Assembly: GCF_000430645.1 (NCBI RefSeq)
Contig: NZ_AUMK01000003.1
Coordinates: 620,001 to 684,000 of the forward strand
Direction of reading: 5' to 3'
DNA from: Aquimarina latercula DSM 2041
GTDB taxonomy: Bacteria; Bacteroidota; Bacteroidia; Flavobacteriales; Flavobacteriaceae
Length of the DNA stretch: 64,000 nt
The notes below the pieces were generated by a model, which was not told where the DNA came from, made no database searches, and worked only from the letters and a program-made list of their open reading frames with translations. Shown in pieces: positions 6,475 through 23,534 of the stretch. Made by a program: the position numbers and the translations under genes. Each line of letters opens with the position of its first letter. Positions within the stretch are counted from its first letter, which is position 1.

Positions 6475-6509
6475 AAAAAGGGATGTCATATTTGACATCC
6501 CTTTTTTTT
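6475..6509. terminator. Bidirectional intrinsic terminator
   Basis: A 14-bp perfect stem (AAAAAGGGATGTCA at 6475-6488 with its complement at 6493-6506), a 4-base TATT loop and a T-run to 6509 form a strong intrinsic terminator for the beta-helix gene. The A-run on the other side gives a T-run on the minus strand, so it can also stop transcripts of the convergent SGNH gene, whose stop codon overlaps it. Confidence 0.88.
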
Positions 6510-7443
6510 AATTATCCATGCTATTTTGTTGATTTATACGTTCAGAAACAAGTTTTGTAAAGTACCTTGCTCCTTTATCATTAAGATGAGATGGATCATG
6601 AAACCAATCTAATTTATTATTAAAATTTTTATCCTCAGAGAAGTCTAATATAGGGACCTCCTCTTCTTTAGAAATTTTATTAATTAATGCTAAAGACTTA
6701 TTATTAGAACGTATCTTTCTTAATGCTGGAGAAATTACAAAAACTAAATCCACCTTATTAGATTTTGAATTATCGATAAACTCTTTTAAAGCAAAAACAA
6801 AGTTCTCATCAATTTCTTTACTCTGATCATCAATGTTATTTAAATCGTTTTTAATCTGATTATTACGCGTTATACCATGAAGAGGTCTATACCCTTTATA
6901 ATCTAATTGAGGAGATACATAGTATCGAAGTATATGAATGATTGTAGAGTTTAATAAATATGATTTAAAAAACATCTCTACATCAATAAATTTAGAATTT
7001 AATCTAAATATTGGTCTTAGTTCGTCCTTAAACTCGCTGTAATAAGGATGTAAGTCATTAAGTCGATCATAAGCAATATCAGAAGAATACAAAAAATCTT
7101 CATCTATATTAAGAATAAATAAATCAGGAGTACTACGTTTTAGAAGCATTTCTTGCATTGCTAAATGATATAACAATTGTTGTCCTTCTGCACCAGCGTT
7201 ATAAGCTGTAGTATGTAATTGTTTCTCCAAAACTTCAGGCACATAATGCCTATGCGCATGCGAACTTCCAAAAATCAATACTTCTGCTTCTGTTTCATAG
7301 ATTGTGTGATTAGCTCTGGCATATTTACCAGTTTCTTGCAAAAAGAATATTTGATTACTAACAATTCCTAGAAGCACATCTACAATCAAAATAATTATGA
7401 CAAACTTTATGATTTTTAAAAATATAGAACTGTATTCTTTCAT
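6508..7443 (-). CDS. SGNH-hydrolase-like protein, partner of MBOAT acyltransferase
   Basis: Starting at the ATG at 7441-7443 the product has 311 residues: a short N-terminal membrane anchor (about residues 8-27), then IFGSSHAHRHY, the block with the nucleophile Ser of SGNH/GDSL folds, and near the C-terminus HDPSHLNDKG, matching the catalytic Asp-x-x-His. Proteins of this type sit next to AlgI-like MBOAT membrane acyltransferases and finish O-acyl transfer to glycans in the periplasm, as AlgJ and AlgX do for alginate. The longer frame up to 7494 begins with GTG and would overlap the MBOAT gene by 41 bases, so the ATG, 10 bases after the MBOAT stop, is preferred. Confidence 0.8.
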   Translation of the reverse strand: MKEYSSIFLKIIKFVIIILIVDVLLGIVSNQIFFLQETGKYARANHTIYETEAEVLIFGSSHAHRHYVPEVLEKQLHTTAYNAGAEGQQLLYHLAMQEMLLKRSTPDLFILNIDEDFLYSSDIAYDRLNDLHPYYSEFKDELRPIFRLNSKFIDVEMFFKSYLLNSTIIHILRYYVSPQLDYKGYRPLHGITRNNQIKNDLNNIDDQSKEIDENFVFALKEFIDNSKSNKVDLVFVISPALRKIRSNNKSLALINKISKEEEVPILDFSEDKNFNNKLDWFHDPSHLNDKGARYFTKLVSERINQQNSMDN

Positions 7444-7453
7444 AAATGAATGC

Positions 7454-8869: not shown

Positions 8870-8886
8870 GATTTAAACAAGTTCTT

Positions 8887-10290
8887 TTAAATCTCTATTG
8901 TAAAATTTCTTTTTACCGCATCAAATTTTCCATTTGGTCCTAGTGGAATATCATTTACAACATGTATTTGATAGTTTATAGTTTCACCTAACCTATCCTT
9001 CATATTGTATATAAGTTTTTGCTTCATTTGTTCATCAAATTTTTCATCAGCAATCAAATTAACTATAATCTCATTAGGACTTTCCTGTACAATTTGACTT
9101 TTCACTATTCCTTCTAAGCCTTTATACGCTGTATCCATTCTACCAACATATCCTTTTTCTTTTGTCCACAATATATCATCTTCTCTACCAGTCAATTTTT
9201 CTATCATAGGCATTAGACATCCACAGTTACACGTCTTCCCTTCTTCAGAAAGTAGCACTGTATCTTCTATATTATATCGAATCAAAGGTGTTTTAAGATT
9301 TGTAAAACTCGTAACTACTAATTGAGCAACTTCTCCAGCCTTCGCTTTTTCTCCTTTATTATTTATAAACTCAAAAATTCCCGAATCTGTATTTAAATGC
9401 AAATTACCTTGCGTACATTCTGTAATAAAAGGACTACCTTCGCTAGAAGCGTATTGATTATATACGTGACAATTAAATGCCTTCTCGATTTCCAATCGTT
9501 GATAATCATATAATGTTTCTGCTGTAACTGCAATTGCTTTTGGAGTAAAGTTTAATGTCAAATTATTCTTATTAATGAACCTACTAATAATATAAATAGC
9601 AGATGGATATCCATCTAATAAAATAGGTTTAAAACGATTTAGTTTTTTTACATAATGACCTAAATTATCATCTGTTAAATGATATGTAGACATTAGTAGT
9701 TGATTCTCGAAATAATTATATACCCAAAATGGTGGTTTTTTAGAATCTGGTTTTACAATTAACCTTCCAGAAAATCTAACTTGTTTCACTCTCTTTGTTT
9801 CTAGACCAATCGCTTTATGAAACCTTCTCCATAAGGCAAATGATCTATTGATTGATTCCTTATCTAAATAGTTAATCGTAGGAGCACCTGATGTTCCACT
9901 GGTATAACCAACCCCATCAGTATTTCGACTTTTATTAACCAGAACATCTGGATTCTTTTTACGTTCTGCTTTGGTAAGAATCGGCATTTGCTCAAGAACA
10001 TTGTAAGGATTCTCCTCTATATCCTCAAGCTCTATTCCTAATTCCTTCATTTTTTCGCTATACCAATCAGAGTATTGAAAAGCTTCGGATAATAATAGAA
10101 CCAATCTACTCTTTTGATATGCATCTATTGTTTTACTATCCGCCTTCCATAAGTCGACATACTCTTTTAAGAATGTATCAAACTCTGTTGTGTATCGCTG
10201 TTTAGAATTTTGAAAAGCCTTAATATTGAGTAATATAAACTTAAAAGGATAAGGCAAACTGTTATAAATTTTCTCTTGCAACTTTCCCAT
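8887..10290 (-). CDS. PaaK/CapK-like adenylate-forming enzyme with Cys cluster
   Basis: This 467-residue protein is the second CapK-like adenylate-forming enzyme of the locus. The phosphate loop is YTSGTSGAPT at about residues 129-138. QYASSEGSPFI is the adenine/acid-binding region. A compact CNCGC follows near residue 355, a cysteine cluster seen in many members of this family and probably a metal site. The C-terminal ligase subdomain ends with NDIPLGPNGKFDAV, where the lysine corresponds to the catalytic one of this superfamily. It sits 2 bases upstream (in transcription order, after) the GT4 gene and before the MBOAT gene, so its product, perhaps an acyl-adenylate or thioester, may be used to decorate the repeat unit. 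The substrate is unknown. Confidence 0.87.
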   Translation of the reverse strand: MGKLQEKIYNSLPYPFKFILLNIKAFQNSKQRYTTEFDTFLKEYVDLWKADSKTIDAYQKSRLVLLLSEAFQYSDWYSEKMKELGIELEDIEENPYNVLEQMPILTKAERKKNPDVLVNKSRNTDGVGYTSGTSGAPTINYLDKESINRSFALWRRFHKAIGLETKRVKQVRFSGRLIVKPDSKKPPFWVYNYFENQLLMSTYHLTDDNLGHYVKKLNRFKPILLDGYPSAIYIISRFINKNNLTLNFTPKAIAVTAETLYDYQRLEIEKAFNCHVYNQYASSEGSPFITECTQGNLHLNTDSGIFEFINNKGEKAKAGEVAQLVVTSFTNLKTPLIRYNIEDTVLLSEEGKTCNCGCLMPMIEKLTGREDDILWTKEKGYVGRMDTAYKGLEGIVKSQIVQESPNEIIVNLIADEKFDEQMKQKLIYNMKDRLGETINYQIHVVNDIPLGPNGKFDAVKRNFTIEI

Positions 10291-10292
10291 AA

Positions 10293-11435
10293 CTACCGTC
10301 TTACTTGTTCTTTATAAAATTCATGAATTTTTTTAGTATTCGAAACAATGTCGTAATCTCCTTTTACTATTTTCTCTGTATTATTATTCTTTTTGGAAGC
10401 ATCCGTTTCGATTATTTTTCCTGCCCAATATTCTGCAGGTTTATCAATAGACAAAAATTCTATATCATCAGTAAGGCTTACTTCTGTAGTAATACTATCC
10501 GAAGCAAAAACTTTGATTCCTGCAGCTTGTGCCTCAATCAATGTAACCGGCAATCCTTCATAAAAAGACGGAAAAACGAACACATCAAACATTTGAAATA
10601 ATTCCGGAACATCTGCTCGCACTCCTAAAAAATGTACATTATTCTTAATCCCTAAATTCTCTGCTTCTTTTTCCATTACTTTTCTTAGAGGACCATCCCC
10701 TATCATAACCAAATCACAATCTGGTTTTTCATCCAATAGGGCTGAGAAAATCTTTAACAAAAAAGCATGGTTTTTTTGACTTGCAAAACGCCCTACATGA
10801 CCAATTACCAAACGATTCTTTAAATTAAAATCTTCCTTATATTTATTCGCTACAGTAAAATTATGGGCAAACTTTTCTGTATTAATAGCATTATTCATGG
10901 TAATAAATGAAGTACTATCTCCAAATAACCATTTCCCAGCTTTGTCGCCACAAGAAAATAGATGAGTAGCATCTTTCTTTACCTTCTTTTTTAGCTGAAG
11001 TTTGATTAATTTCTTAAAAGTTTCTTTTTTACTTTCCTTATTGGAAAATAATGACATAAAACTAACATCATCAATTGCAATATGTGCATGGGCAATTCTG
11101 CAAGGGATATCGAATTCTTTAGCTATTTTAAGAGGAAAACAACTGAAAGTATTTAAGTGAGAATGGACAATATCATACTCTTTATGTTCTTTAAAAAACA
11201 ATCTAAGCTTTTGGTAATAGTCTCCTGGGAAAAGAGGATTTATAGGATCAAATCTATAAATTTTACCTCCTAGACTCTCAATTTCTTCATCAAAAGCAGC
11301 TTTTTCTTTTCTATGTACTAAAAAATCAAACTGTATTTTATTCTTATCAATCTTTCTATAATAATTCATGATCATGGATTCTGCTCCTCCTCTATTCATG
11401 ATCGTAAAAACTTGCAAAACACGTATTGCCCCCAT
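10293..11435 (-). CDS. Glycosyltransferase family 4
   Basis: A 380-residue GT-B enzyme. The N-terminal part has MNRGGAESMIMNYYR and HSHLNTFS, typical of Bacteroidota GT4 (EpsF-like) proteins. The nucleotide-sugar half shows GHVGRFASQKNHAFLLKI and FPSFYEGLPVTLIEAQAAG, which holds the EX7E pair intact. The start codon shares one base with the TAA stop of the upstream GT2 gene (TAATG), indicating translational coupling. It probably adds one sugar to the lipid-linked repeat unit on the cytoplasmic face; donor and acceptor cannot be read from sequence. Confidence 0.92.
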   Translation of the reverse strand: MGAIRVLQVFTIMNRGGAESMIMNYYRKIDKNKIQFDFLVHRKEKAAFDEEIESLGGKIYRFDPINPLFPGDYYQKLRLFFKEHKEYDIVHSHLNTFSCFPLKIAKEFDIPCRIAHAHIAIDDVSFMSLFSNKESKKETFKKLIKLQLKKKVKKDATHLFSCGDKAGKWLFGDSTSFITMNNAINTEKFAHNFTVANKYKEDFNLKNRLVIGHVGRFASQKNHAFLLKIFSALLDEKPDCDLVMIGDGPLRKVMEKEAENLGIKNNVHFLGVRADVPELFQMFDVFVFPSFYEGLPVTLIEAQAAGIKVFASDSITTEVSLTDDIEFLSIDKPAEYWAGKIIETDASKKNNNTEKIVKGDYDIVSNTKKIHEFYKEQVRR

Positions 11436-12325
11436 TAGAATTCTCCTTTTGTTTTATATCGTATATATAGGTTTAATAGTATTCCAAATGGTATTGCTAA
11501 AACGGTAGTCAATTTTTTTGGAGATTCACTAATAAAAGATCTATTTTTTGTAAAAATTGCACTCGATACATAATGAATTGCATTCTTAAATTGATCTTTA
11601 AAGTTTTCTGCTAGTTTCATTCTACTCTTTCTAGAAAAAGCAAAACCTTTAGGATGTCTTCTATATTGTTTTAAGATATTCATACTAGATCCATCTTGCA
11701 TATATTCTACCTCGCATAATACCTCATTAATAGGTAGTAATTTATAATCTTGATCTATTAATTGATATAAGTACCCTAGAGGAACAAAACGTTCTCCTTC
11801 GAAAATAGGATACGGCGGATATTTCTTTACAACCTCGGTTCGATACACTAACTTCTTATCTCCAAGTACTTTGTGTACATTATATAAATCATATAGTGTA
11901 GTTTCTTTTATATGCTCAGGAATTTTAGTTCCAATTAATTTTCCTGTGTGATCAGCATCTAATCCTACCAATCCAGCAAATTCTGGTTTATCTTTTATCT
12001 TTTCCCAAGCAACAAGAATCTTTTCTATAGCTTCCTCACCTATACAATCATCACTATCAACGCATACATTTAATGTAGTTTCAGTTAATCTATATGCCGC
12101 ATTATGACCACCATGCATTCCTTGATTCTCTTGATAATGATATTGTATATCAATTTTTCTTTCCTTGATCCAAGAAGCTACCAAAGTTTCTGTATCGTCA
12201 GTTGAACCATCATCAATAATTAACCAAACAAAATCCTGGTTAGATTGCTTGATTAAACTCTCATAGCACTTATGTAAACAGTAAGCTCTGTTATAGGTTG
12301 GTGTAAAAACAGTTATAGTTTTCAT
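11435..12325 (-). CDS. Glycosyltransferase family 2
   Basis: The 296-residue protein is a GT-A enzyme. It begins TVFTPTYNRAYCLHKCYESL, has LIIDDGSTDDTE for nucleotide binding and VCVDSDDC as the DxD-like metal site, then a shorter acceptor part with EGERFVPLGYLY. It lacks transmembrane segments apart from a weakly hydrophobic C-terminal stretch, so it acts at the cytoplasmic membrane surface. It is the second of the coupled chain GT2-GT4-CapK-MBOAT-SGNH, read from 12.3 to 6.5 kb. Confidence 0.93.
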   Translation of the reverse strand: MKTITVFTPTYNRAYCLHKCYESLIKQSNQDFVWLIIDDGSTDDTETLVASWIKERKIDIQYHYQENQGMHGGHNAAYRLTETTLNVCVDSDDCIGEEAIEKILVAWEKIKDKPEFAGLVGLDADHTGKLIGTKIPEHIKETTLYDLYNVHKVLGDKKLVYRTEVVKKYPPYPIFEGERFVPLGYLYQLIDQDYKLLPINEVLCEVEYMQDGSSMNILKQYRRHPKGFAFSRKSRMKLAENFKDQFKNAIHYVSSAIFTKNRSFISESPKKLTTVLAIPFGILLNLYIRYKTKGEF

Positions 12326-12346
12326 TAGTTGATTTGTTGTTAGTGA

Positions 12347-13441
12347 TTATCCCCAATATAAATAGTACATCATATATGTAAATGAAAAATAAGCCAGCAT
12401 TACTTTCCCTATCATAAAATGCTGATCTTTAAAAAATTGTTTCTTCAAAAATGGATATATGATTATTATTGCCATCATAAACCAAGATAGATAAGCAAAT
12501 CTATTAGAATAGTTTGCTTTTATAACTAAAATCCAAAAGCCATTACAAATCAAATATGTATTAAGCAACTGGAAGTAAAACTTATCTTGAAAATTCTTTT
12601 TATATATAAAGTACCATCCTGCAAATACTGCAAAAGCACTATGAAATAAGAAATCCCATCTAAATCCAGTACTAGCAAATGCATTTGCATCCACTTCTGA
12701 TGTTAAATATCCAGTAAGTCGATCATCTCCAAAACCTAAACTAGCGAAGAGCGTAACCCATAAACTTCCCATTACTAATGACAATGGAATACAAGCTAAC
12801 CATCCTTTAAAAAACACTTTAGGGTTGTTATAAAAATTAGTGATTATATAAGCGAAAATTGGCAAGAACAATGTTTTATGAAAAAAGGTAGCAGCGAGAA
12901 AGAATAACCCCATAACAACCTTATTTCGGTGGTAGCATAATCCCCATAAAAAAAGTGATGTAGCGGCTCCGTTACGCATACCATTTACTCCATATGTCCA
13001 AAATGAAAACGAAACAATAAACATCACAAAAGAATAGTACCAATACTGACCAAATAATGTTTTTGATATTTTATATAATGGAAAAATGTATATAAATGCA
13101 CAAATCGTAAAAAAAGTATGCGCCGATACAATCTGTGCCAATGTTTTCATAAACACATGCCAACCGTAATCATTTACCTCAGGAATATCCCCTCCTAATC
13201 TGTATCTATCAAATGTGACTATATAATTGACGGTATCCCCAAAAATCCCACTAATTGGTCGTTGACCAATATATAAAATTAAAAAGATCAATAGAAAATA
13301 ACCCGAAAAGTTTACAAACACGATATTTTTGTGCTCATTAATCTGTAACAGTCGGGTATGTAGTAATGTAAAAACAACCAAAAAGAAGCATAAATTAATA
13401 TACAACGGGTAGTAAAACTCTAAAGGCACAAAAGTGTTCAT
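12347..13441 (-). CDS. EpsG/Wzy-like polysaccharide polymerase
   Basis: A very hydrophobic 364-residue protein with about ten predicted spans. The pattern of a large loop near residues 55-90 (GQRPISGIFGDTVNYIVTFDRYRLGG) and the SYGVNGMRNG-like segment WTYGVNGMRNGAATSLFLWG is typical of the EpsG family, which stands in for Wzy and joins repeat units in the periplasm. It is the only polymerase candidate of the locus, which supports a Wzx/Wzy-dependent route. The ATG start at 13439-13441 follows a gap of 88 bases from the acetyltransferase gene, the largest in this part of the operon. Confidence 0.82.
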   Translation of the reverse strand: MNTFVPLEFYYPLYINLCFFLVVFTLLHTRLLQINEHKNIVFVNFSGYFLLIFLILYIGQRPISGIFGDTVNYIVTFDRYRLGGDIPEVNDYGWHVFMKTLAQIVSAHTFFTICAFIYIFPLYKISKTLFGQYWYYSFVMFIVSFSFWTYGVNGMRNGAATSLFLWGLCYHRNKVVMGLFFLAATFFHKTLFLPIFAYIITNFYNNPKVFFKGWLACIPLSLVMGSLWVTLFASLGFGDDRLTGYLTSEVDANAFASTGFRWDFLFHSAFAVFAGWYFIYKKNFQDKFYFQLLNTYLICNGFWILVIKANYSNRFAYLSWFMMAIIIIYPFLKKQFFKDQHFMIGKVMLAYFSFTYMMYYLYWG

Positions 13442-13529
13442 TCTACTAATTAATTTTAACCGTTATGTTATTACTATTTTGCTTCACTTCTTAAGGTCTT
13501 CTCTTTTGTTTTTTTATAAAAATATAAAA

Positions 13530-14102
13530 TTATACTTTTTTACCATCTTGCTTTATGATTCTTGCTGGATTTCCAACTACAACGCAATTGTCCGGAATAT
13601 CCTTAACAACCACAGAACCGGCACCTATAGAACAATTATTACCAATCTTAATATCTCCGATAATGATAGCTCCTGTATAAATAGATACATTATTACCAAT
13701 TGTAGGTCTTTTTCCATTTACTTCTCCTACAGTTACCAAATGATTTACATATAGATTTTCTCCAATTGAATCTGCATTTAAGATTGTACTATAAGGGTGT
13801 CCAGTTAACACACCGCCTCCTAATTTTGTACTAATATCAATTCTAAAATACTTTTCCTTCTTACAGTAAATGTTGAGTAAAATCGATAAAATACCTCTAT
13901 TTCTGAAATAGAATAATGTTCTAAAATCTGGAGAGTTTGCTAAAAAATTTAAAAGTAAAGATATCTTACTTCCTTTTGTTCCTTTAGCAGTTGCCCACCT
14001 ATCTATATCCATATCGATAACACCTCTATTTTTACTCGTCTTGTAAACGAATACATGAGGCAACAAAAAAATTTTATATATATTTAAAATTAATGATCTC
14101 AT
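13530..14102 (-). CDS. Hexapeptide-repeat (left-handed beta-helix) acetyltransferase
   Basis: The 190-residue product resembles serine acetyltransferase/WcaF-type sugar O-acetyltransferases. The last two thirds contain hexapeptide turns such as IGENLYVNHLVTVG, IGNNVSIYTGAIIIG and IGNNCSIGAGSVV, ending in the family-typical VVVGNPARII. The start codon overlaps the stop of the upstream GT4 gene by 4 bases (ATGA), so it is translated in the same unit. It probably acetylates a hydroxyl of a sugar intermediate in the cytoplasm. Serine acetyltransferase of central metabolism is less likely given the location. Confidence 0.85.
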   Translation of the reverse strand: MRSLILNIYKIFLLPHVFVYKTSKNRGVIDMDIDRWATAKGTKGSKISLLLNFLANSPDFRTLFYFRNRGILSILLNIYCKKEKYFRIDISTKLGGGVLTGHPYSTILNADSIGENLYVNHLVTVGEVNGKRPTIGNNVSIYTGAIIIGDIKIGNNCSIGAGSVVVKDIPDNCVVVGNPARIIKQDGKKV

Positions 14103-15220
14103 TTCTTTGGTGTTAAATCATTAAACATTTTTTGCCAAAGAGCCATGACAGCATCTAACTGGTAGTTCTTTGCATTTTCTCTAGCGTTCTTACCCATTTC
14201 CTGTATACGATCTCGATCACTCATTAATGTATTCAGTTGATCTACAAATGCATTATTATCATACGGAGGAATCAGGATACCTGTATTTTTATCAATAATA
14301 TTTCTTGGTCCATATGGACAATCAAAAGATACAATTGGTAATCCACAAGCTTGCGCTTCTAATAAAACTAGAGGAAAACATTCGTTGTGTGATGTCATCA
14401 CAAAAACCGATGATTGCATCATCTCTTCCTTAATCTTATCTGTTGATCCCATTAATTTAATAGAATCCTGTATACCAGCAGCATAAATCTTATCCTGAAG
14501 TTTCTTTACATAATTAGCTTCTCCACTACCAAAAATATGAAGCTGACAATCTTTTCGGGTTTTCGAAAACTCTTGCCAGATATCTATCAAAATATCATAC
14601 CCTTTTACAGCAGCTATTCTTCCCGCTGTAATAATTCTATTATTAGAAAGGTCTGATACATTATCTGGATAAAAAGTTAACGGATTAGAGATAACGATAG
14701 TATTGTCACCCTTATAGTAATTGGATTCGTCTTTATTTAGAATAACTAACTTATCATATTTTGATTCTACGTAATCCGCAAACTTGAAAAAGTACTTTTT
14801 AAAGAGACTCGGATTATTACGTTTTTCTTTTTCTATAAATCTCGAATAATGAAACTCTTTTACTTTTGGAATACCCTTAACTATAAATGGCACAAAATAC
14901 GTATCTACACTATGACTACAAACAACTACGATGTCAGGGTTTATATCTTTTAATGCAGCTTTTGTTTTAGAAATATGTTTAGGTAGTTTCTTAAGATTTT
15001 TTGGATGAAAATAAGATTTCCTTCGATTATAATTAATCCCTAGATCTTTAAAAATCACCCTTTTATCAAAACTATAACAAGGTTTTTCTTCTTTTTGTTC
15101 TGTTGTAATAATATGAACCTCGTTACCTTCTTGTTCTGCTAAATAATTAGCTTTTATAGAAAGTACTCTTTCTATTCCTCCGTGTAGATATACTTGATCA
15201 ATAATAAAGACTATTTTCAT
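14099..15220 (-). CDS. Glycosyltransferase family 4
   Basis: A 373-residue GT4 protein that begins KIVFIIDQVYLHGGIERVLS, the acceptor-side signature of this subgroup. The C-terminal half carries ITAGRIAAVKGYDILI and SHNECFPLVLLEAQACGLP, where the EX7E glutamates are intact. It overlaps both neighbours by 4 bases, and resembles the next gene (15217-16326) over its whole length, for instance in the shared CPYGP block near residue 305, so the two probably arose by duplication and then took on different linkages. Confidence 0.92.
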   Translation of the reverse strand: MKIVFIIDQVYLHGGIERVLSIKANYLAEQEGNEVHIITTEQKEEKPCYSFDKRVIFKDLGINYNRRKSYFHPKNLKKLPKHISKTKAALKDINPDIVVVCSHSVDTYFVPFIVKGIPKVKEFHYSRFIEKEKRNNPSLFKKYFFKFADYVESKYDKLVILNKDESNYYKGDNTIVISNPLTFYPDNVSDLSNNRIITAGRIAAVKGYDILIDIWQEFSKTRKDCQLHIFGSGEANYVKKLQDKIYAAGIQDSIKLMGSTDKIKEEMMQSSVFVMTSHNECFPLVLLEAQACGLPIVSFDCPYGPRNIIDKNTGILIPPYDNNAFVDQLNTLMSDRDRIQEMGKNARENAKNYQLDAVMALWQKMFNDLTPKK

Positions 15221-16326
15221 TTTGATCTTGGGTTCATTAAATTAGAGAATAACTGATTCCATTCTTCTGCAATAGTCTCAGGTAAATATTTCTTCACTGC
15301 TTCTTTTGCCTTAAGCCCCATAGATTTCCTTTCCTCTTCATTCTCTATTAAAGCAATTATCCCTTTTGCAAAAGCATCAACATCTCCGTTTTCTATTAAA
15401 AGTCCATTCTCCGTATCGGTAATAATATCAGAAGGCCCATATGGACAATCAAATGAAATACAAGGAACGCCATACGCCATAGCTTCTGTAAGTACCATTC
15501 CAAAACCTTCAAATCGAGAAGACATTGTATAGATGGAAGCTTGTTCATATTTTTCTGCTATGTTTTTTACAGGAGGATAAAAATTAATTGTCTTTGTTAT
15601 ATCTAAGTTCTCCGCTAATACTGCTAAACCTTCTGATTCACTAATAGTACCATATATATCTAGTGTCCAATCAGGGTATTTTGATACAACTTGTTTCCAA
15701 CTCTTTAACAATCGATCATATCCCTTTTGAAAACTATGCTTACCCACCGCAAGTACTTTTTTATTTTCTAGCGTACTTTTTGATTCAGGATAAAATGATA
15801 AAGGGTTAGGTATTACTTTTAGATTTTTAAAAGACCATTCATTAAGGTTCCCTTTTGTCAATACTATAAAATGATTGTAGTAGGATCCTCCAAAATTCAT
15901 CAAACCAAATTTAGTAGCAGTTGTGATTCTTTTGATTATTGATCTTTTTCCTTTTTTAATCTCTACACTTCTAGAAACATGCCTTTCATAAATCATAGGA
16001 CAAGGTTTCCCAAGTATTAAAGGAACGAAAAAACCTTTTAGGCCATCATCACATACAGCAATTATATCCGGATTTAAACTTTTAATAACACTGCGTAAAC
16101 CAGAAGCATATTTGTACATTCTGGATAACGGATTACCTTTAGCTCTCACATTATGATATGAGATTTTGGGACTGAAATCATAGAATAGTTCAGTAGTTTC
16201 TTGATTTAATGTAACTATATGTATATCGTAATTATAATCTTCGGCAAGTTTACTAGCTTTAATAGAAAGTACTCTTTCTAGTCCACCAGGACCATCTATA
16301 CGATTAACAATATATACAAGTTTCAT
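15217..16326 (-). CDS. Glycosyltransferase family 4
   Basis: The 369-residue product is a GT4 enzyme related to the one encoded just downstream: MKLVYIVNRIDGPGGLERVLS at the N-terminus, VGKHSFQKGYDRLLKSW, and SSRFEGFGMVLTEAMAYGVP with the EX7E pair, followed by CPYGPSDII. A frame start one codon earlier uses TTG at 16327-16329; the ATG at 16324-16326 is preferred. It ends in a 4-base overlap with the next gene. Function is inferred as addition of one residue of the repeat unit. Confidence 0.92.
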   Translation of the reverse strand: MKLVYIVNRIDGPGGLERVLSIKASKLAEDYNYDIHIVTLNQETTELFYDFSPKISYHNVRAKGNPLSRMYKYASGLRSVIKSLNPDIIAVCDDGLKGFFVPLILGKPCPMIYERHVSRSVEIKKGKRSIIKRITTATKFGLMNFGGSYYNHFIVLTKGNLNEWSFKNLKVIPNPLSFYPESKSTLENKKVLAVGKHSFQKGYDRLLKSWKQVVSKYPDWTLDIYGTISESEGLAVLAENLDITKTINFYPPVKNIAEKYEQASIYTMSSRFEGFGMVLTEAMAYGVPCISFDCPYGPSDIITDTENGLLIENGDVDAFAKGIIALIENEEERKSMGLKAKEAVKKYLPETIAEEWNQLFSNLMNPRSK

Positions 16327-16362
16327 CAAGTTTTACTTTAGAAAATGTCTGACCTTTTTTTA

Positions 16363-17322
16363 TTACTTTTTTATTACAATATCCAAATAAGGATAACAGA
16401 ATCCACTGGTTAAATTTTTATTCAGTGATTTTAAAAACTTAATATATCGTAACCCCTTAAAACCTACTTTTAAAAAAGCAGACTTTTCAAATTTCATTAA
16501 ACTACTAACCACGTTTATTTCTTTTAAAGGCGCAATCGCTACTTCGAACTCATGATAACTTGCTCCTCTTCCCCATCTTTTAAATTTCATCATACTTTCA
16601 TCATCCAATTCTCTATAAGAATCTTTGAAATTTTTTCTACTAGAAAACTTAGAATAATAATATCCTAAATCATCTGGTAGCCAATCGTAAAAAGGCAATG
16701 CGGCAGTATGCGAATCATAATACCACAATCTATTAGGCGTTTCAATAACTGCTAGATATCCTCCTTTTGATAACATACCCCAAGCTTGTTTTAAAGATTC
16801 TAATCGTTCACTAACAGTCATATGCTCCAATACGGCATAATAGATAATAAAATCAAATTTTTGATCCTTAAAATTCTTTTCTATTTCCTCTCCATTCACA
16901 TGATGCAATTCTGCTTCATATCCTGCAATCTTCATTCTATCTTTAGCAACTTCCAAAGCTCCAGCATCAACATCGACGCCAACTACTTTGGCTCCCTGCT
17001 CGCTTAAAGCTAAAGTGGAAATCCCAGTCCCACATCCAATTTCTAAAATACTTGTCCCATTTAAATCCTTAACACTATGTAACCAAGGAGCTATTCTATT
17101 TCTATTATAATATAATCGTTCAAAAAGCTGTCCACTTATTGCTTGGTTATATTCTTCAGTGGATAATCTACTTTTAGTGTTTCCTCTGTCTAAATAATTT
17201 TCCTTAAGCGATTTTGTTAGTTCTTCTAATTGCTCTTTGCTAAATGCAGTATGTTTTTGTTGCATTTTTTTCGGAGCTGTAAAGAATCTATCTTTTAACA
17301 GTTTTTTGAATACCCTTTTCAT
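16363..17322 (-). CDS. Class I SAM-dependent methyltransferase
   Basis: A 319-residue protein with a seven-strand methyltransferase fold: motif I is ILEIGCGTG at about residues 92-100, followed by VVGVDVDAGAL (the acidic residue for ribose), FIIYYAVLEHM and GGYLAVIETPNRLW. The long N-terminal arm (about 85 residues) and C-terminal extension are shared by many methyltransferases in polysaccharide loci. It may O-methylate a sugar of the chain or cap the chain end; the latter would control length. The target is not visible from sequence. Confidence 0.88.
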   Translation of the reverse strand: MKRVFKKLLKDRFFTAPKKMQQKHTAFSKEQLEELTKSLKENYLDRGNTKSRLSTEEYNQAISGQLFERLYYNRNRIAPWLHSVKDLNGTSILEIGCGTGISTLALSEQGAKVVGVDVDAGALEVAKDRMKIAGYEAELHHVNGEEIEKNFKDQKFDFIIYYAVLEHMTVSERLESLKQAWGMLSKGGYLAVIETPNRLWYYDSHTAALPFYDWLPDDLGYYYSKFSSRKNFKDSYRELDDESMMKFKRWGRGASYHEFEVAIAPLKEINVVSSLMKFEKSAFLKVGFKGLRYIKFLKSLNKNLTSGFCYPYLDIVIKK

Positions 17323-17337
17323 CGTTTGTGCGGTTGA

Positions 17338-18303
17338 TTAGATTTTATTAGTAACTTTTTCTTTTAATGCATTGGCAAGTTCGTGGTGTTTTTCGAGGTT
17401 TTTTACGGTTGTATTGTTGGTTATTTTTCCTTCTAATCCAAAATTAGAAGTATATGCTCCGGTTTTACTGTCAATATCAATTCTATTAAATAATTCTAGA
17501 ATACCATCAAATCGACAAGAGTCTACAAAACTATCAAAGCCATTAACAAAAATTACGGGTGTTCCCATTGCTAAACAAGGCAACGCACAATGAATTCTAG
17601 AGGTAATAACAAGTTTTGCTCTTGCATATTTATTCAGTAAATCTACGGCCATATCAAACTTCTCTTCATCTGTATAAGTATTAGAAGGTGGTTCTTGGTT
17701 AATAAATGTTGCTGTATCTAATACTTCTTTACTGATAAATTTCTTAATATGTTTATTCTTCTTTCCTAATTTAAAAGCTGATCCATTAAGAATGTTTTTT
17801 ATCGTAATCTTCGTGTTATAAAATACTTTTTCGGCTCTTGGATAACTGTATAAAGGATCTACGATATAAATATCATCTCCTCTTTCTGAATCATCAACTT
17901 TATAAGAATCCAATGTTAAAGTAAGGCATCCTGTAAAATGTGCATCAACCCCTTTTGCTTTTAATGTATCTGCAGTAAATTGATCTCTACATCCTATCGG
18001 TTCGTGCTTCTTTAAATAAGCAATACCTTTTTCACTTAGCATTGCAGGAGCAGCGGTATTGTTCATATGAAAAGATACAAATACCGGATCTATATCTTCT
18101 GAAGGAACCCAATTATGAATATTGTGTGTAAACCATCCATTCATAATTAACTTGATAGGATCTCCTTTGTATTCTCCTAATCGTTCTCTATTTAATAGCG
18201 TATCAACTTTTGGTAAAAATTGTTTAGCTGCTAAACTTTGAATATTATCTCCAACATTAAAGAAATTCTTATTCTCATCGTATGTAAGTAGTCCGTATTT
18301 CAT
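17338..18303 (-). CDS. Polysaccharide pyruvyl transferase family protein
   Basis: This 321-residue product fits the CsaB/PssM-type family, which adds pyruvate ketals from phosphoenolpyruvate to sugars. Features are YDENKNFFNVGDNIQSLAAKQFLP at the N-terminus (the GDxxI element is given here as VGDNIQ), HEPIGCRDQFTADTLKAKG in the middle, and in the C-terminal half ITSRIHCALPCLAMGTPVIFV, with the family's Arg-His pair. It starts 27 bases after the PP-loop gene. Pyruvylation would add negative charge to the polymer. Some family members do other chemistry, so the exact reaction is open. Confidence 0.85.
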   Translation of the reverse strand: MKYGLLTYDENKNFFNVGDNIQSLAAKQFLPKVDTLLNRERLGEYKGDPIKLIMNGWFTHNIHNWVPSEDIDPVFVSFHMNNTAAPAMLSEKGIAYLKKHEPIGCRDQFTADTLKAKGVDAHFTGCLTLTLDSYKVDDSERGDDIYIVDPLYSYPRAEKVFYNTKITIKNILNGSAFKLGKKNKHIKKFISKEVLDTATFINQEPPSNTYTDEEKFDMAVDLLNKYARAKLVITSRIHCALPCLAMGTPVIFVNGFDSFVDSCRFDGILELFNRIDIDSKTGAYTSNFGLEGKITNNTTVKNLEKHHELANALKEKVTNKI

Positions 18304-18330
18304 GAATTCTACAATTTACCTAGTTTTTAT

Positions 18331-19611
18331 CTATTTGAATTTTCTATATATCTTTTGCAACCAAGGGAACTTATTCCTGATAATAAATTTCAATCTGTTT
18401 GTTCCTTTATTTGCATTATTTAATTTTTCTTCTAAAAGCCTGTCCACCTTACCGTTTCTAAAATCATTCATATGTTTAGTTTCGGTTTCAAGATCATCAA
18501 AAACAAAGAAAGTATCCACATTTTTAGCTTTTTCCATAAGTTCCCACCAGAAGTATTTTACTCCCTTGCTTCCGGAACCTATATGTAATATTTGATAAAT
18601 TTTATCATAAACACTACTGTCAACATTAAATCCATATTCATTAGGATTTTGATTATTAAGTATCAATCCTAGTATTGTTCTAAAACATTTTTCGCAGTAG
18701 CTACAATTAAACTCCGTTCTTTTTTCAGAATAGCAAACACGCAATCGAAATCTTTTATCTTTCTCTGATGCAAATTTGGCAATCAAGTCTACCTTATCTT
18801 GCCTTTTTAGTTCATACCCATCATGAAATACCTTAAAACCAGATCCCCAAGTAATCTTCTCATCAATCTCAGGTGTTGATCCCCAGTCAATATCTATATG
18901 ATCTGTATAAGAAGAAGCAATATGAACTGAACCATATTTATTTACAAATGATAAAGGTGCAATCGAACCTACAAGAGCTAATCCATGTTGTACTTTTCCC
19001 CACCATCCAATATCATTTAACAACAGTTCTACTTGATAGGTATAAAAATCTCTAAGATTCGTTTCTATAAACTCCTTATTATTATCATTTAAAAGCTCTT
19101 CGTTCTCAATAAAATCCGTAAAATCATTCCATTGCTCTTTATCCTTGATTGTAATATCAGCTCCGTGAAGTGTTATTAAATCCGGTTTTTGGTCATAGAT
19201 TCTAATATATGTTGCAAACGCATCTACTCCTCCACTAAAAAGCATTGATGACTTAGATTTTTCTATTGAATTTTTTATTAACTTTTTCGCAACCAATGTT
19301 CCTTCAAAACTACTAGAAGTATCTCTTTTAGCAAATTCTTGTTTTATTTTTTCCTGCGCCCTATAAAAATCTTCGTCTACTTCATCTATCTCAATAGTAA
19401 AACCAGCAAACCAAGCCATTGGTAATACATTGGACAAAAATGGAATTACTGCAATACTTAATGGAGTTTTACTAACATCTATTTGATATTTAACGTAAAA
19501 CAGCTCATTCTCAGTAAATAATTTTTGGATATTAGCGCCCACTGAATATTCATAGTTAATCTTATGACCATCTTCTGAATATGTAATTGCATGTAGCTTT
19601 AATGTATCCAT
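18331..19611 (-). CDS. Unknown PP-loop (ATP pyrophosphatase-like) protein in polysaccharide locus
   Basis: I do not recognise a named family for this 426-residue protein. It contains FSGGVDA at residues 125-131, matching the SGGxDS/A loop of N-type ATP pyrophosphatases (asparagine synthetase, QueC, NAD synthetase, WbpG-like sugar amidotransferases). A cysteine set follows near the middle of the C-terminal half: Cys293, Cys303, Cys306 and Cys309 (C-x9-C-x2-C-x2-C), reminiscent of the zinc site of QueC. The first 115 residues and the last 100 have no motif I can place. It lies between the flippase and pyruvyl transferase genes, 8 bases from the former, in the same orientation. An ATP-dependent step on a sugar or on an attached carboxylate (amide, thioamide or similar) is a reasonable inference only. 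Confidence 0.6.
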   Translation of the reverse strand: MDTLKLHAITYSEDGHKINYEYSVGANIQKLFTENELFYVKYQIDVSKTPLSIAVIPFLSNVLPMAWFAGFTIEIDEVDEDFYRAQEKIKQEFAKRDTSSSFEGTLVAKKLIKNSIEKSKSSMLFSGGVDAFATYIRIYDQKPDLITLHGADITIKDKEQWNDFTDFIENEELLNDNNKEFIETNLRDFYTYQVELLLNDIGWWGKVQHGLALVGSIAPLSFVNKYGSVHIASSYTDHIDIDWGSTPEIDEKITWGSGFKVFHDGYELKRQDKVDLIAKFASEKDKRFRLRVCYSEKRTEFNCSYCEKCFRTILGLILNNQNPNEYGFNVDSSVYDKIYQILHIGSGSKGVKYFWWELMEKAKNVDTFFVFDDLETETKHMNDFRNGKVDRLLEEKLNNANKGTNRLKFIIRNKFPWLQKIYRKFK

Positions 19612-19619
19612 TTTTTAAT

Positions 19620-21161
19620 TTATTTTCGTCTCAATAATGAAACTATAGGTTTTCTAAATAATTCTCTTTCATATTCTAACATACCAACAAAATACATCAT
19701 AATCGCAAAAACAATGGTATATGAAACTCCTTTAGCTATAAAATTAAACCATCCTTCACCAGGAATATAGTTAATAAAATACCCTACGGCTATTACCAGT
19801 AGAACTACCAATAAAACCTTATGAAATAACTCTTTAAAAAATCGTAGAATATTCAATCCAATTTTATTATGATAATAAAAGTTCATCACATTCTGAACAA
19901 TCATCCATCCACCAACAAGCCCAACTATCATTCCTACTGCACTATACTTCATTGCTAAAAAACCACCAGCAACAACTCCAAAAATCATAAACACTAGATA
20001 AAGAATTGCCTTGAACGATAATTTATTTTTGGCTTCTAATATTGAATTCCCAAAAGCTTGTAATAAAGGTAGTGTATACCCTATCATGATAATTAGAGCA
20101 ATCATATAAATTTCTCTACATTCTTCTATTCCATACCTACCATCTACAGAAGAATCTCCTCCACCAACCCATAGGTTAATAAATTGTTCCCCATATAACA
20201 TAAAAGCTCCAAAAATATACATCAAAATAATAAAAGATAACCTTCCTAGTTTGATCATCATATTGGTTAACTCTTCTCCACTAGCATTGTTAACCGACAT
20301 CTGTGTTGCTCTTGGTAAAAAGACACTAGAAATTGCTGTAGAAAAAGCACCATAGTACGTTCCTAAAGCGATTCCTATTCCGTAAATACCCAAAACTTTC
20401 GGTATGCTAATAGCACCTAAAACCCAACTACCTGATTTCCATTGCAACATATTTACAATCGCAAATAGAAAAATCCAACTAGAATATTTGAAAATTTCTC
20501 TAATAAAATCTTTAGAAAATTGATGCAGTTTAAATCTTACTTTTAGTTTCACTAATACATAATAGGCAGACACTGAAATCGTCAGAATATTAAACACAGT
20601 ATCTACAATAACTAAGGCGATAGCTCTTCCTCCAAAAAACAAGACAGCTACAATAGTTAAAGATCTTAGAATGTATCTAATTATCCCAACGGATTCTGGA
20701 AAAACAAATTTTTCGTATCCTTTGCAAATCCCAGTAAATATCATCCCCGGAAGCTGAATTGCTAAGTTAAAAACTAGAATAACAAACATCATTTTTGCTA
20801 TTCTTAGTTCTTCAGGATTAAACTTCGTAAAGTACGTATCTATAAAGAAGTAAAATATAGTTCCAGAAATAACAACCAATGTAGAAACCGCGAAATAAAG
20901 TATCCTAACCGTTCCTAAGAAATTCTCTTCCCCTTTTTTATCTTTCTCCGCTCTATATTTAGCTACAAAACGAACTACTGTATTGGTCAATCCAAAATCC
21001 AGTAATGCAATTGTACCAATTAAAGCACCGATAGCATTAAATATACCGTACTCATCCTTGCCCAAATAACTAACTATCAATGGAGTTATCATAATTCCAA
21101 TAACGTTAATCAAAAAGATTTTTAAGTACGTAAGTAAAGCTCCTTTTTTTAATTGGCTCAA
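19620..21161 (-). CDS. Wzx-type lipid-linked oligosaccharide flippase
   Basis: The 513-residue protein has 12-14 predicted membrane spans and belongs to the MVF/MATE-type polysaccharide exporters. The N-terminus (GALLTYLKIFLINVIGIMITP, then YLGKDEYGIFNAIGALIG) is typical of Wzx proteins, as is LLDFGLTNTVVRFVAKYRAEK after the second helix. It would move the undecaprenyl-linked repeat unit to the periplasmic face for polymerisation. The start appears to be TTG at 21159-21161: the next in-frame Met is at residue 22 within the first helix, and no in-frame ATG is present just upstream. Confidence 0.93.
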   Translation of the reverse strand: MSQLKKGALLTYLKIFLINVIGIMITPLIVSYLGKDEYGIFNAIGALIGTIALLDFGLTNTVVRFVAKYRAEKDKKGEENFLGTVRILYFAVSTLVVISGTIFYFFIDTYFTKFNPEELRIAKMMFVILVFNLAIQLPGMIFTGICKGYEKFVFPESVGIIRYILRSLTIVAVLFFGGRAIALVIVDTVFNILTISVSAYYVLVKLKVRFKLHQFSKDFIREIFKYSSWIFLFAIVNMLQWKSGSWVLGAISIPKVLGIYGIGIALGTYYGAFSTAISSVFLPRATQMSVNNASGEELTNMMIKLGRLSFIILMYIFGAFMLYGEQFINLWVGGGDSSVDGRYGIEECREIYMIALIIMIGYTLPLLQAFGNSILEAKNKLSFKAILYLVFMIFGVVAGGFLAMKYSAVGMIVGLVGGWMIVQNVMNFYYHNKIGLNILRFFKELFHKVLLVVLLVIAVGYFINYIPGEGWFNFIAKGVSYTIVFAIMMYFVGMLEYERELFRKPIVSLLRRK

Positions 21162-21213
21162 TGCAGTTGGTTTAAAGTTATTTTTGTCGCTTTATTTAGA
21201 AAGATTATTTCCA

Positions 21214-22497
21214 TTATAATCTTCCGTGCACTTCTTCTTCTTTTAATATTCCTTTTACATCATACAAGACACCATTTGGTTTTAACAATGATTTTAAATC
21301 AATGTCCAAGTATTCTTTATGTGCAACGGTTAATACAACAGCATCAAATTTCGAATCAGGTAATTCGGTGATCGTTTCAAGACCATATTCGTGAGCTACT
21401 TCTGATGGACTAGCCCAAGGGTCATAAATATCTATATTAGTACCAAAATCTTTAAGGTTTTGTATTACATCAACCGCTCTTGTATTCCTTACATCTGGAC
21501 AATTTTCTTTAAAAGTAATTCCTAACACCAAAATATTAGCGCCTTTGATTTTGATATCGTGATTAACCATTAACTTAATCACTTCCGAAGCGACATACTG
21601 CCCCATGCTATCATTTAATCTTCTACCCGCTAATATGATTTCTGGATGATATCCAAATTCTTGTGCTCTTTGAGCTAAATAATATGGATCAACTCCAATA
21701 CAATGTCCTCCTACCAAACCGGGTTTAAAAGGAAGGAAATTCCATTTTGTCCCAGCAGCTTTTAAAACCTCATTAGTATCAATATTCATGAGGTTAAAAA
21801 TTTTTGCTAGTTCATTAACAAATGCAATGTTAATGTCTCTCTGCGAATTTTCTATAACCTTAGCAGCTTCTGCTACTTTTATTGTTGGCGCTAAATGAGT
21901 TCCTGCTGTAATCACAGATGCATAAAGTGCATCCACTTTTTTACCAATTTCTGGTGTAGAACCTGCTGTAACTTTTAGAATTTTTTCTACAGTATGTAAT
22001 TTATCTCCCGGATTGATTCGTTCTGGAGAATATCCTGCATAAAAATCCTCATTAAACTTTAATCCACTTATTTTCTCTAAAACAGGAATACATTCTTCTT
22101 CTGTAACACCTGGATATACTGTAGATTCATATATAACAACATCTCCTTTTTTCAATACTTTTCCAACAGTTTCGCTGGACTTATACAAAGGCGTAAGATC
22201 AGGTCTATTATTTTTATCTACGGGTGTTGGAACAGTTACAATATAATAATTACAATCTTTAATATCTCCAAGATCCGCTGAACAATATAATCCCTTATCC
22301 ATTTGAGAATTATCTTTCAATACAGACTGTAATACCGTATCTTCAACTTCTAAGGTAGTATCCTTTCCGGATCTTAGTTCGCTAATTCGATTTTGATTAA
22401 TATCAAAACCAATAACAGGAAATTTTGTTGCAAATAATCTAGCCAAAGGAAGTCCTACATATCCTAAACCTATTATTCCTATTTTAATATCTTTCAT
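21214..22497 (-). CDS. UDP-sugar 6-dehydrogenase (TviB/WbpA type)
   Basis: This 427-residue enzyme belongs to the UDP-glucose/GDP-mannose dehydrogenase family. IGLGYVGLPLA at residues 9-19 binds NAD. The middle has YSPERINPGDKLH, and the catalytic cysteine is in GGHCIGVDPYYLA near residue 265. The sequence YSPERINPG is characteristic of the Vi-antigen TviB/WbpA branch, which oxidises UDP-GlcNAc or UDP-GalNAc to the uronic acid with 2 NAD+. The next gene upstream is a WbpP/TviC-like 4-epimerase, so the pair most likely makes UDP-GalNAcA. It starts with ATG, 38 bases after that gene. Confidence 0.92.
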   Translation of the reverse strand: MKDIKIGIIGLGYVGLPLARLFATKFPVIGFDINQNRISELRSGKDTTLEVEDTVLQSVLKDNSQMDKGLYCSADLGDIKDCNYYIVTVPTPVDKNNRPDLTPLYKSSETVGKVLKKGDVVIYESTVYPGVTEEECIPVLEKISGLKFNEDFYAGYSPERINPGDKLHTVEKILKVTAGSTPEIGKKVDALYASVITAGTHLAPTIKVAEAAKVIENSQRDINIAFVNELAKIFNLMNIDTNEVLKAAGTKWNFLPFKPGLVGGHCIGVDPYYLAQRAQEFGYHPEIILAGRRLNDSMGQYVASEVIKLMVNHDIKIKGANILVLGITFKENCPDVRNTRAVDVIQNLKDFGTNIDIYDPWASPSEVAHEYGLETITELPDSKFDAVVLTVAHKEYLDIDLKSLLKPNGVLYDVKGILKEEEVHGRL

Positions 22498-22535
22498 TTT
22501 TGTGCTTATTTCGTTCGTTAATTGGTGACCTTTAA

Positions 22536-23534
22536 TTATTTTAAATTATCCCAATACCATTTTACAGCTTCTTTTAATCCCGACTTTATATCAAATTTAG
22601 GATCATAATTAAGAAGTGTTTTAGCTTTATCGACAGAAGCTAAAGAATGTGGAACATCTCCTTTACGTTCTGGTCCTTTCTTAACTTCAACATTACTTAT
22701 TTTGGAATCAAACTCTGACAAATATTCTTTTAGCAAAGTAACTAACTCATTTAAAGTAGTTCTTTCTCCAAAAGCTGTATTATATACGTTATTTAAGGCT
22801 TTCTCATTGTCGGAAACGATAGCTCTCAAATTCATTTGAATCACATTATCAATATATGTAAAATCTCTTGAAAAAGATCCATCACCATTAATTACCGGCG
22901 ACTCATACTTCATAAACTGCATTACAAATTTCGGAATTACCGCAGCATACGCTCCATTAGGATCTTGTTTTCTCCCAAAAACATTAAAATATCGTAATCC
23001 AACAGTATCTAAGTCATATGTTCTTTTGAAATTATCTGCATACAACTCATTTACATACTTAGTAATTGCATATGGTGATAAGGGTTTTCCTATTTTATCC
23101 TCTATTTTTGGTAATGCTTCTGAATCACCATAAGTGGAAGAACTCGCTGCATAAATAAATCGTTTAACTCCAGCATCTCTTGCAGCTACAAGCATATTTA
23201 GAAAACCTCCTACGTTAACATCATTACTCGTTATTGGATCATTAATAGATCTAGGCACGGATCCCAATGCAGCTTGATGTAATATATAATCTACACCTTT
23301 ACAAGCTTTATTACAATCTTCTAAATTACGAATATCGCCTTCGATAAATGTAAAATTTGGATTTTCCTTTAATGCTGTTAGGTTTTTCTTATGGCCAGTA
23401 GCAAAATTGTCTAGCCCCACAACTGTACTGTTAGCTTCTAATAATGCTTCGCATAGGTTTGACCCTATGAAACCTGCCGCTCCTGTAACTAAAACAGTAG
23501 AAGAACTAAGTAGTTCTAATTGGTTAGTGTTCAT
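22536..23534 (-). CDS. UDP-N-acetylhexosamine 4-epimerase (WbpP/TviC type)
   Basis: The 332-residue product is an extended short-chain dehydrogenase. [10 protein letters not shown] at residues 16-25 is the Rossmann loop, followed by [13 protein letters not shown], a stretch strongly shared with WbpP and TviC. The active-site serine lies in [10 protein letters not shown] and the Tyr-Lys pair in [11 protein letters not shown]. It interconverts the GlcNAc and GalNAc series at the UDP level and supplies or uses the product of the dehydrogenase encoded next. It is the promoter-proximal gene of the polysaccharide operon. Confidence 0.92.

Follow-up and report, generated by a model that had tools for sequence, protein, structure and literature searches.

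The known uronamide loci use asparagine-synthase-like genes, and AsnB-type proteins bear a glutaminase domain of their own. PP-loop enzymes (ATP-pyrophosphatases) also occur in glycan loci, and WbuX-family members are believed to make acetamidino groups in O-antigen loci. The clusters described for PF06508, the QueC family, are canonical QueC, QatC, Cap9, LarE, a purine-salvage-linked group, WbpG-like proteins, GMP synthase and an archaeal group; WbpG appears there as a PP-loop enzyme of surface-glycan loci (accessible part of PMC13329287). An amide of N-acetylgalactosaminuronic acid (GalNAcA) has been reported from an Aeromonas glycan, and a GalNAcA-D-alanine amide, GalNAcA6(D-Ala), from Microbulbifer (excerpts of PMC3210612). 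The b-Cool locus of Bordetella has genes for the uridine diphosphate (UDP) forms of N-acetylglucosaminuronic acid (GlcNAcA) and GalNAcA together with a putative asparagine synthase, BB0880, and the mass of its glycan suggested uronate-amides (PMC12407052, in the part available). Here we describe a PP-loop gene at 18331..19611 of a 64,000-nucleotide stretch of Aquimarina latercula DSM 2041 (contig NZ_AUMK01000003.1, positions 620,001 to 684,000; hereafter the window). Its product is apparently a member of an undescribed family with a QueC-type core, and in all 38 flavobacterial loci compared the gene stands between a flippase gene and a pyruvyl transferase gene, where it may amidate a glycan carboxylate.

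A sequence-only reading of the window had pointed out an intact SGGVDA phosphate loop (residues 126-131) and a C-x9-C-x2-C-x2-C set (293-309), and both are borne out. S126, G127, G128 and D130 are invariant, as are C293, C303, C306 and C309, the only cysteines of the protein, in alignments A1 (the window protein and 24 of the 120 matches listed; 25 sequences), A2 (70 sequences, taking in relatives of ~20% identity) and A4 (16 sequences, cross-phylum). This invariance excludes chance occurrence of the motifs. The loop of A1 reads SGG[VI]DA; SGGxDS, seen in none of these 25 close relatives, is found in 30/31 of a Hymenobacter-side branch. A tyrosine follows the first cysteine, as in the QueC zinc motif, in 25/25 close relatives and in 2/30 of a wider set. 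The family signature, drawn from the window protein and 29 relatives, comprises [ST][GC]GxD, RxxK or RxxR, NC-x2-C-x-K-C and mostly WGSxPxxD (WGxxP in 25/30); the Paracoccus branch has SCGVD and lacks the WGSxP motif. All members of four overlapping family sets carry NC-x2-C-x2-C (25/25, 31/31, 36/36 and 30/30), with a fourth cysteine 5-14 residues ahead in 25/25, 30/31, 36/36 and 30/30, and the pattern occurs in none of 30 QueC, 9 QatC-type and 18 WbuX proteins.

The family has no name in Pfam or NCBIfam, in keeping with the earlier description of a PP-loop protein of unknown type inside a polysaccharide locus. Searched singly, the window protein matched no PP-loop family of either collection at E<=1, no PDB sequence at E<=1, nothing in PADLOC (E<=1) and nothing in PHROGs (E<=1e-5). 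The literature search, which had preprints and most subscription journals outside its range, returned no description of the family, no link between PP-loop or 7-cyano-7-deazaguanine synthase proteins and polysaccharide pyruvyl transferases, and nothing on galacturonamide in O-antigen made by an amidotransferase; papers that mention QueC-like proteins together with polysaccharide deal, to judge by their titles, with phages.

The protein had been called unlike asparagine synthetase or QueC. That stands for single-sequence scans of Pfam, NCBIfam and PDB: no asparagine synthetase, AsnB or NadE family is matched, a one-sequence NadE profile reaches 6.8% with the family cores, and the window protein gives no PF06508 match at E<=1, below the Pfam gathering score. 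Membership of the asparagine synthetase or NadE families is thus not indicated. For QueC the statement fails once profiles are compared with cross-phylum alignments. Against 30 Bacteroidota QueC proteins, A4 gave 94.6% by hhalign (E 7.3e-8), the aligned region running from the PP-loop to the four-cysteine (Cys4) site inclusive, and 74 cut core sequences gave 95.8% (E 6.8e-9), whereas neighbour families used as controls stayed at <=2.4% against A4 (13 families) and <=0.9% against the cut cores (7 families). Motif patterns served to choose the QueC and WbuX proteins used for comparison, and the cut cores exclude nine sequences that failed the motif pattern (seven haloarchaeal, one from Pseudobutyrivibrio, and P0364), of which the haloarchaeal and Pseudobutyrivibrio ones do have TGGVD and the Cys cluster. 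Neither A1 nor A4 produced a usable match in PDB searches, A4 reaching GMP synthase and QueC chains only at E 0.09-0.9. The best PDB match of A1, a splicing factor (E 0.002), lies over the C-terminal extension and was set aside as chance. The profiles indicate that the family has the QueC superfamily fold over its whole core and that this relation is remote but specific.

The QueC likeness, with the PP-loop opening the core and the Cys4 site closing it, does not extend to the substrate. A confident match to a QueC family of unrelated role had been named as a result that would speak against a glycan function, and only half of it is found: the core matches at ~95% with cross-phylum profiles, and the QueC substrate motifs are missing. 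VPxRN and YPDC occur in 0/25, 0/31, 0/36 and 0/30 of the four family sets and in 29/30 and 30/30 of the QueC proteins, so a preQ0 synthase is unlikely and a different role is to be expected. The segment that binds the nucleobase in QueC is probably replaced, and the window protein also has an extra N-terminal region of ~115 residues and a C-terminal one of ~110. Two other patterns say less: YxQxHxxE failed in the family and also in all 30 QueC proteins, and the exact QueC spacing C(x)8CxxCxxC (x9 in the window protein) is found in none of the 30. Compared by description, the window family, which scores below PF06508, is not among the clusters set out in the accessible part of PMC13329287.

Could the enzyme nevertheless make or attach a 7-deazaguanine compound, as a true QueC or a Cap9- or QatC-type protein would? 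The QueC-type core is compatible with this, as are three PTPS/QueD-type matches in the window genome, and QatC (NF041925), at ~400-450 aa, likewise joins N- and C-terminal extensions to a QueC core (PMC13279940, in part). QatC proteins gave 86.2% with the cut cores and 12-53% uncut, depending on the alignment (25-53% for A1, A3 and A4). However, their cysteine spacing is described as C-x19-C (PMC13329287, in part) against x9 here; C-x19 occurs in 2/122 family entries but only in 4/9 QatC-type proteins, which makes it a weak discriminator. The window protein has no PADLOC match, and the Pfam scan of nine window neighbours gave none that is QatA- or QatD-like; QatC membership is therefore not supported. 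With the nucleobase motifs in no family sequence tested and the gene fixed in glycan loci, we regard a 7-deazaguanine role as the least probable of the readings considered here. The window genome (6.25 Mb, rated 100% complete) has no PF06508 match, a situation shared by 20/61 phylum genomes at E<=1e-5, this one included; given the three PTPS/QueD-type matches, loss of the deazaguanine pathway cannot be claimed for it, and QueE was not searched.

The sequence-only reading had leaned on WbpG as its analogue, which turns out to be the wrong model. An acetamidino group, as made by WbpG/PseA (N-acetyl sugar amidotransferase), would suit a PP-loop enzyme of surface-glycan loci, and WbuX proteins do reach 89.9% with the cut cores. 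That match stops at the PP-loop half (columns 5-153 of 217); the Cys4 cluster is present in 0/18 WbuX proteins, and the cysteine pattern of the window family is QueC-like. There is no match to TIGR03573 (WbpG/WbuX) in the window genome, nor any HisH/HisF-type gene among the nine neighbours scanned, so that membership appears to fail and an acetamidino product is very improbable. A further family, DUF6395 (PF19932), gives weak matches to several relatives over the Cys region, with 16/36 members of a 550-aa branch matched (best E 4e-5); the window protein itself gives none, and the name is absent from the literature searched.

Across 38 flavobacterial loci (the window, 21 related loci and 16 further loci), in which the PP-loop protein is 39-91% identical to that of the window, the order flippase, PP-loop gene, pyruvyl transferase is unbroken (38/38), and the distances between the genes range from -37 to +54 bp. 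Two of the loci, L022 and L049, are probably from one contig, giving at most 37 independent loci. The placement between flippase and pyruvyl transferase, as originally proposed, is confirmed, and the order stays while the downstream genes vary. TviB and TviC clusters are both present in 36/38 loci, and in the two loci lacking TviB a 64-68% identical homologue is encoded elsewhere in the same genome (TviC was not searched there); the suspected co-occurrence with TviB/TviC-like genes thus holds. Pyruvyl transferase homologues of >=65% identity are found in exactly the 17/397 sampled Flavobacteriaceae genomes that have the PP-loop gene. A further 25 genomes, none of them with the PP-loop gene, have a homologue of <=50% identity. 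We read 15-kb stretches from 12 of these (pyruvyl transferase 37-48% identical) and found neither a PP-loop gene (0/12; profile, E<=1) nor a match to the TviB cluster (0/12). In five of them (L201, L206-L209) the pyruvyl transferase gene directly follows a flippase-like gene, four with PF01943. Flippase and pyruvyl transferase therefore also occur without the PP-loop gene, and the two sets of loci together indicate that the PP-loop gene accompanies one pyruvyl transferase subfamily and uronate genes.

Outside Flavobacteriaceae we opened 18 plasmid contexts, found in PLSDB with P0167, P0241, P0244 and the window protein as queries, such that every genus listed was seen at least once. An annotated glycan gene (glycosyltransferase, flippase, pyruvyl transferase, polysaccharide deacetylase or tyrosine autokinase) lies in the stretch shown in 15/18 of them, the exceptions being L066, L070 and L071. 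The homologues sampled are thus mainly in glycan loci, where the sequence-only reading had allowed for the opposite, although Hymenobacter and phage-like copies also occur outside such loci; the Hymenobacter gene stands beside one that by eye resembles a respiratory-chain gene. A PS_pyruv_trans gene is near the PP-loop gene in 5/15 genera and, where present on plasmids, always within 4.5 kb of it. The two genes form a two-gene pair in Azospirillum, with no glycosyltransferase or flippase annotated within 10 kb on each side in an incomplete plasmid gene table, and they adjoin in two Gloeothece species and in two Priestia strains; in Gemmobacter and Pseudobutyrivibrio they are two genes apart. 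By comparison, PS_pyruv_trans lies within 4.5 kb in 0/10 TviB-like plasmid contexts, a control of 10 contexts from 60 listed of 634 records, of which several are incomplete as glycan clusters and one is truncated where the record ends. As a control query the flippase matched only its own record, and the TviB contexts served instead. A PS_pyruv_trans profile found no further gene; it was built partly from the Azospirillum, Gloeothece and Priestia genes, so that recovering those five is by construction, and it under-calls, since the divergent genes annotated in Gemmobacter and Pseudobutyrivibrio escaped it.

What, then, might the enzyme do? QueC activates a carboxylate with ATP as an acyl-adenylate that ammonia turns into an amide, and because of this precedent amide formation on a glycan carboxylate is the simplest reading. 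In the window the protein would be an ATP-pyrophosphatase whose QueC-type core, with PP-loop and a presumably zinc-binding Cys4 site, has had its substrate pocket rebuilt for a sugar. A carboxylate on a cytoplasmic glycan precursor would be adenylated, ammonia (or a small amine) would attack the acyl-adenylate to give the amide, AMP and pyrophosphate, and the reaction would equal the first half of that of QueC, halted at the amide. The modified unit would then be flipped by the adjacent flippase. The first candidate for the carboxylate is an N-acetyl-hexosaminuronic acid from the TviB/TviC-like pair, the TviB-like dehydrogenase being the proposed source of UDP-GlcNAcA and the TviC-like enzyme a proposed UDP-GlcNAcA/UDP-GalNAcA epimerase; the second is a pyruvyl ketal placed by the neighbouring enzyme. 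The proposed product is of the kind put forward for b-Cool, where UDP-GlcNAcA/UDP-GalNAcA genes likewise share the locus with the supposed amidating enzyme. We infer the chemistry, the zinc, the amine source, the substrate and the place in the order of events, and we put the probability of this reading, ATP-dependent activation of a glycan carboxylate followed by amide formation, at roughly 0.43. It is also the best reading of the nucleotide-activated modification, amidation of a uronic acid or of an attached carboxylate, that had been suggested from the sequence.

Several observations weigh against it. Sulfur transfer and the joining of other amines are also known among PP-loop enzymes, so that the fold does not by itself imply an amide. 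LarE is a PP-loop enzyme with other chemistry (PMC13329287, in part). The QueC match is weaker with the single-branch alignments A1 (16.7%), A3 (51.3%) and A5 (27.4%), the PF06508 scores of those relatives that match are 11-17 bits for a cut-off of 22, and the SGGxDS loop of QueC is replaced throughout A1 (0/25). The TviB link carries no base rate from Flavobacteriaceae genomes that lack the PP-loop gene. The weak single-branch matches and this missing base rate lower our estimate. PS_pyruv_trans was unseen, in the stretch read, in 10 of the 15 genera outside Flavobacteriaceae (Nostoc, Paracoccus, seven haloarchaeal genera and Hymenobacter), and neither it nor TviB is a universal partner of the PP-loop gene. 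Two Nostoc copies, one adjoining a flippase, and eight loci of the seven haloarchaeal genera have no PS_pyruv_trans nearby. The window locus showed no recognisable glutaminase; Pfam covered nine of its 14 other genes, and the remaining five look by eye like glycosyltransferases and an MBOAT protein. This absence therefore applies to nine scanned neighbours of a single locus.

Which carboxylate would be amidated is a closer question. If the pyruvyl ketal were the target, the pyruvyl transferase would add pyruvate and the PP-loop enzyme would cap its carboxylate, leaving an uncharged ketal. The adjacency in all 38 flavobacterial loci, the confinement of >=65% identical pyruvyl transferases to the 17 genomes with the PP-loop gene, the neighbouring genes of the five other genera and the empty TviB control all fit such a partnership, and the Azospirillum pair in particular favours it. 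However, pyruvyl transferases 37-48% identical do without the PP-loop gene in 12/12 loci, of which five have the transferase gene immediately behind a flippase-like one, the PP-loop gene lacks this partner in two thirds of the genera sampled elsewhere, and the TviB control is loose, given its partial clusters and record end. We know of no amidated pyruvyl ketal. The flavobacterial data slightly favour the uronate, because a TviB homologue accompanies the gene in all 38 loci or their genomes and related pyruvyl transferases occur without it, and we consider the ketal rather unlikely. Distinctly unlikely, and somewhat more so, is the coupling of an amino acid or another amine in place of ammonia. 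Amide-linked amino acids are found in bacterial glycans, GalNAcA6(D-Ala) of Microbulbifer among them, and the QueC-family protein Cap9 links a carboxylate to the N-terminal amine of a protein (PMC13329287, in part). An adenylation-domain protein similar to DltA and nonribosomal peptide synthetase domains (cluster c16) is encoded in 17/38 loci, but the window locus and over half of the 38 lack it, and no candidate amine carrier was recognised in the window locus.

If amide formation on a glycan carboxylate is correct, the QueC scaffold would extend beyond nucleobase synthesis and anti-phage protein modification, and the result would aid in naming the hundreds of proteins at present labelled hypothetical or "7-cyano-7-deazaguanine synthase", the database name of some relatives. 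Amidation of an acidic sugar changes the charge of a surface glycan and could change antigenicity and phage sensitivity. As one gene in a conserved five-gene block, the PP-loop gene offers a ready test system. We extend the proposal only tentatively, and with less conviction, to the whole unnamed QueC-fold family, which would amidate surface-glycan carboxylates (of uronates or pyruvyl ketals) without a glutaminase, the lone copies amid phage tail and lysis genes serving lysogenic conversion.

The named protein closest to that of the window (98% identical) is from the flavobacterium Aquimarina sp. Aq107, and the 21 related loci (65-91% identity) are from Aquimarina in 19 cases. A first search returned 537 relatives at E<=0.001. 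Following a relative in a Hymenobacter genome (E 2.4e-22) opened up a wider branch of 791 proteins, and following one from Paracoccus gave a third set of 138, with 120 listed from each. Among the matches listed are Chloroflexota, Desulfobacterales, Planctomycetota and alpha- and betaproteobacteria, and the family was seen in Bacteroidota, Bacillota, Cyanobacteriota, Pseudomonadota, haloarchaea and phage-like contigs. At E<=1e-5 the window protein matched 17/397 sampled Flavobacteriaceae genomes and 3/296 phylum genomes, its own included in both, the third of the latter being the distant Hymenobacter; with the cross-phylum alignment as query, 3/395 phylum genomes matched.

The gene lies within a run of 15 open reading frames on the minus strand (6508-23534). 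They encode, in order, the TviC-like epimerase, TviB-like dehydrogenase, flippase, PP-loop protein, pyruvyl transferase, methyltransferase, two proteins like glycosyltransferase family 4, a hexapeptide acyltransferase, an EpsG-type polymerase, two more glycosyltransferase-like proteins, a 467-aa protein, an MBOAT-like protein and a last product without a Pfam match (glycosyltransferase and MBOAT labels by eye). Only 8 bp separate the PP-loop gene from the flippase gene and 27 bp from the pyruvyl transferase gene. The pyruvyl transferase scores 67.6 bits with PF04230 (cut-off 25.3), and its activity is predicted from sequence. For the dehydrogenase and the epimerase the top NCBIfam models are TviB and TviC, whose scores of 547 and 419 bits lie below the curated cut-offs of 592 (NF011729) and 760 (NF011728), and WbpP and WbgU are among the PDB chains nearest to the epimerase. 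The 467-aa protein (8887-10290) has no Pfam match at E<=0.001 and by eye has the look of a CapK-like adenylating enzyme. Loci were read as ~20 kb stretches, and some polymerase genes may fall beyond their ends.

Table 1. Coordinates of the PP-loop gene, regions of its product, neighbouring genes of the window and a phage-borne relative.
Feature	Position	Strand	Remarks
QueC-like PP-loop protein, 426 aa	18331..19611	minus	ATG at 19611, stop at 18331; intact open reading frame
N-terminal region	~residues 1-115 of PP-loop protein		limits set by eye
WGSTPEID	residues 243-250 of PP-loop protein		
HDG	residues 263-265 of PP-loop protein		
R270 / K273	PP-loop protein		
C-terminal extension	~residues 315-426 of PP-loop protein		limits set by eye
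Polysaccharide pyruvyl transferase family protein, 321 aa	17338..18303	minus	PF04230 E 2.3e-18; fixed downstream neighbour
Wzx-type flippase, 513 aa	19620..21161	minus	Polysacc_synt PF01943 E 2.7e-17; fixed upstream neighbour
TviB-like UDP-sugar 6-dehydrogenase, 427 aa	21214..22497	minus	NF011729 E 2.5e-164
TviC/WbpP-like UDP-sugar 4-epimerase, 332 aa	22536..23534	minus	NF011728 E 1.2e-125
S-adenosylmethionine (SAM) methyltransferase	16363..17322	minus	PF13649 E 2.5e-18; variable part of locus, 10/38 loci (cluster c22)
EpsG-like polymerase	12347..13441	minus	PF14897 E 6.8e-22; cluster c6 in 32/38 loci
40% identical relative	L171:3703-4989 (IMGVR_UViG_3300025735_000053)	opposite to neighbours	between endolysin and tail/baseplate-type genes

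Relatives are also encoded in 8/73 viral-contig stretches that bear the Cys pattern, two of which (L175 and L176) look alike. In L171, L173 and L174 the PP-loop gene runs opposite in orientation among endolysin, tail-fibre or baseplate genes, and in L175 a tail-fibre-like gene is near. The neighbour scans of these contexts covered those other than L172 and L177; in L178 a phage exonuclease family is matched by one of the neighbours scanned, and another has no match. The phage-like copies are possible lysogenic-conversion cargo that alters the host surface.

Five relatives of the Paracoccus protein (P0350, P0353, P0355, P0356 and P0363) have Pfam domains of other families (methyltransferase, glycosyltransferase 2, PF00768, PF02875), which suggests fusions or mispredicted genes. 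By eye, P0246 (Paracoccus, 558 aa) had looked like a fusion of PS_pyruv_trans and PP-loop domains, an idea we dropped: 71 N-terminal parts gave 0.7-1% against PS_pyruv_trans by hhalign, P0246 has no Pfam match, and PF04230 is found in 2/36 relatives, at a best E of 0.006. On the Priestia plasmids (L064:6236-8840 and L079:4593-7206) two tandem PP-loop copies, 32-33% identical to the window protein in the first strain, lie near the pyruvyl transferase gene and galU, and a DUF6395 gene follows the tandem pair at the edge of L079. The haloarchaeal relatives (L069, L071-L076) have TGGVDS in place of SGGxDS and long unnamed proteins nearby, one annotated DUF6541, and most of their loci also feature genes for an alkaline phosphatase family protein and a polysaccharide deacetylase in the vicinity.

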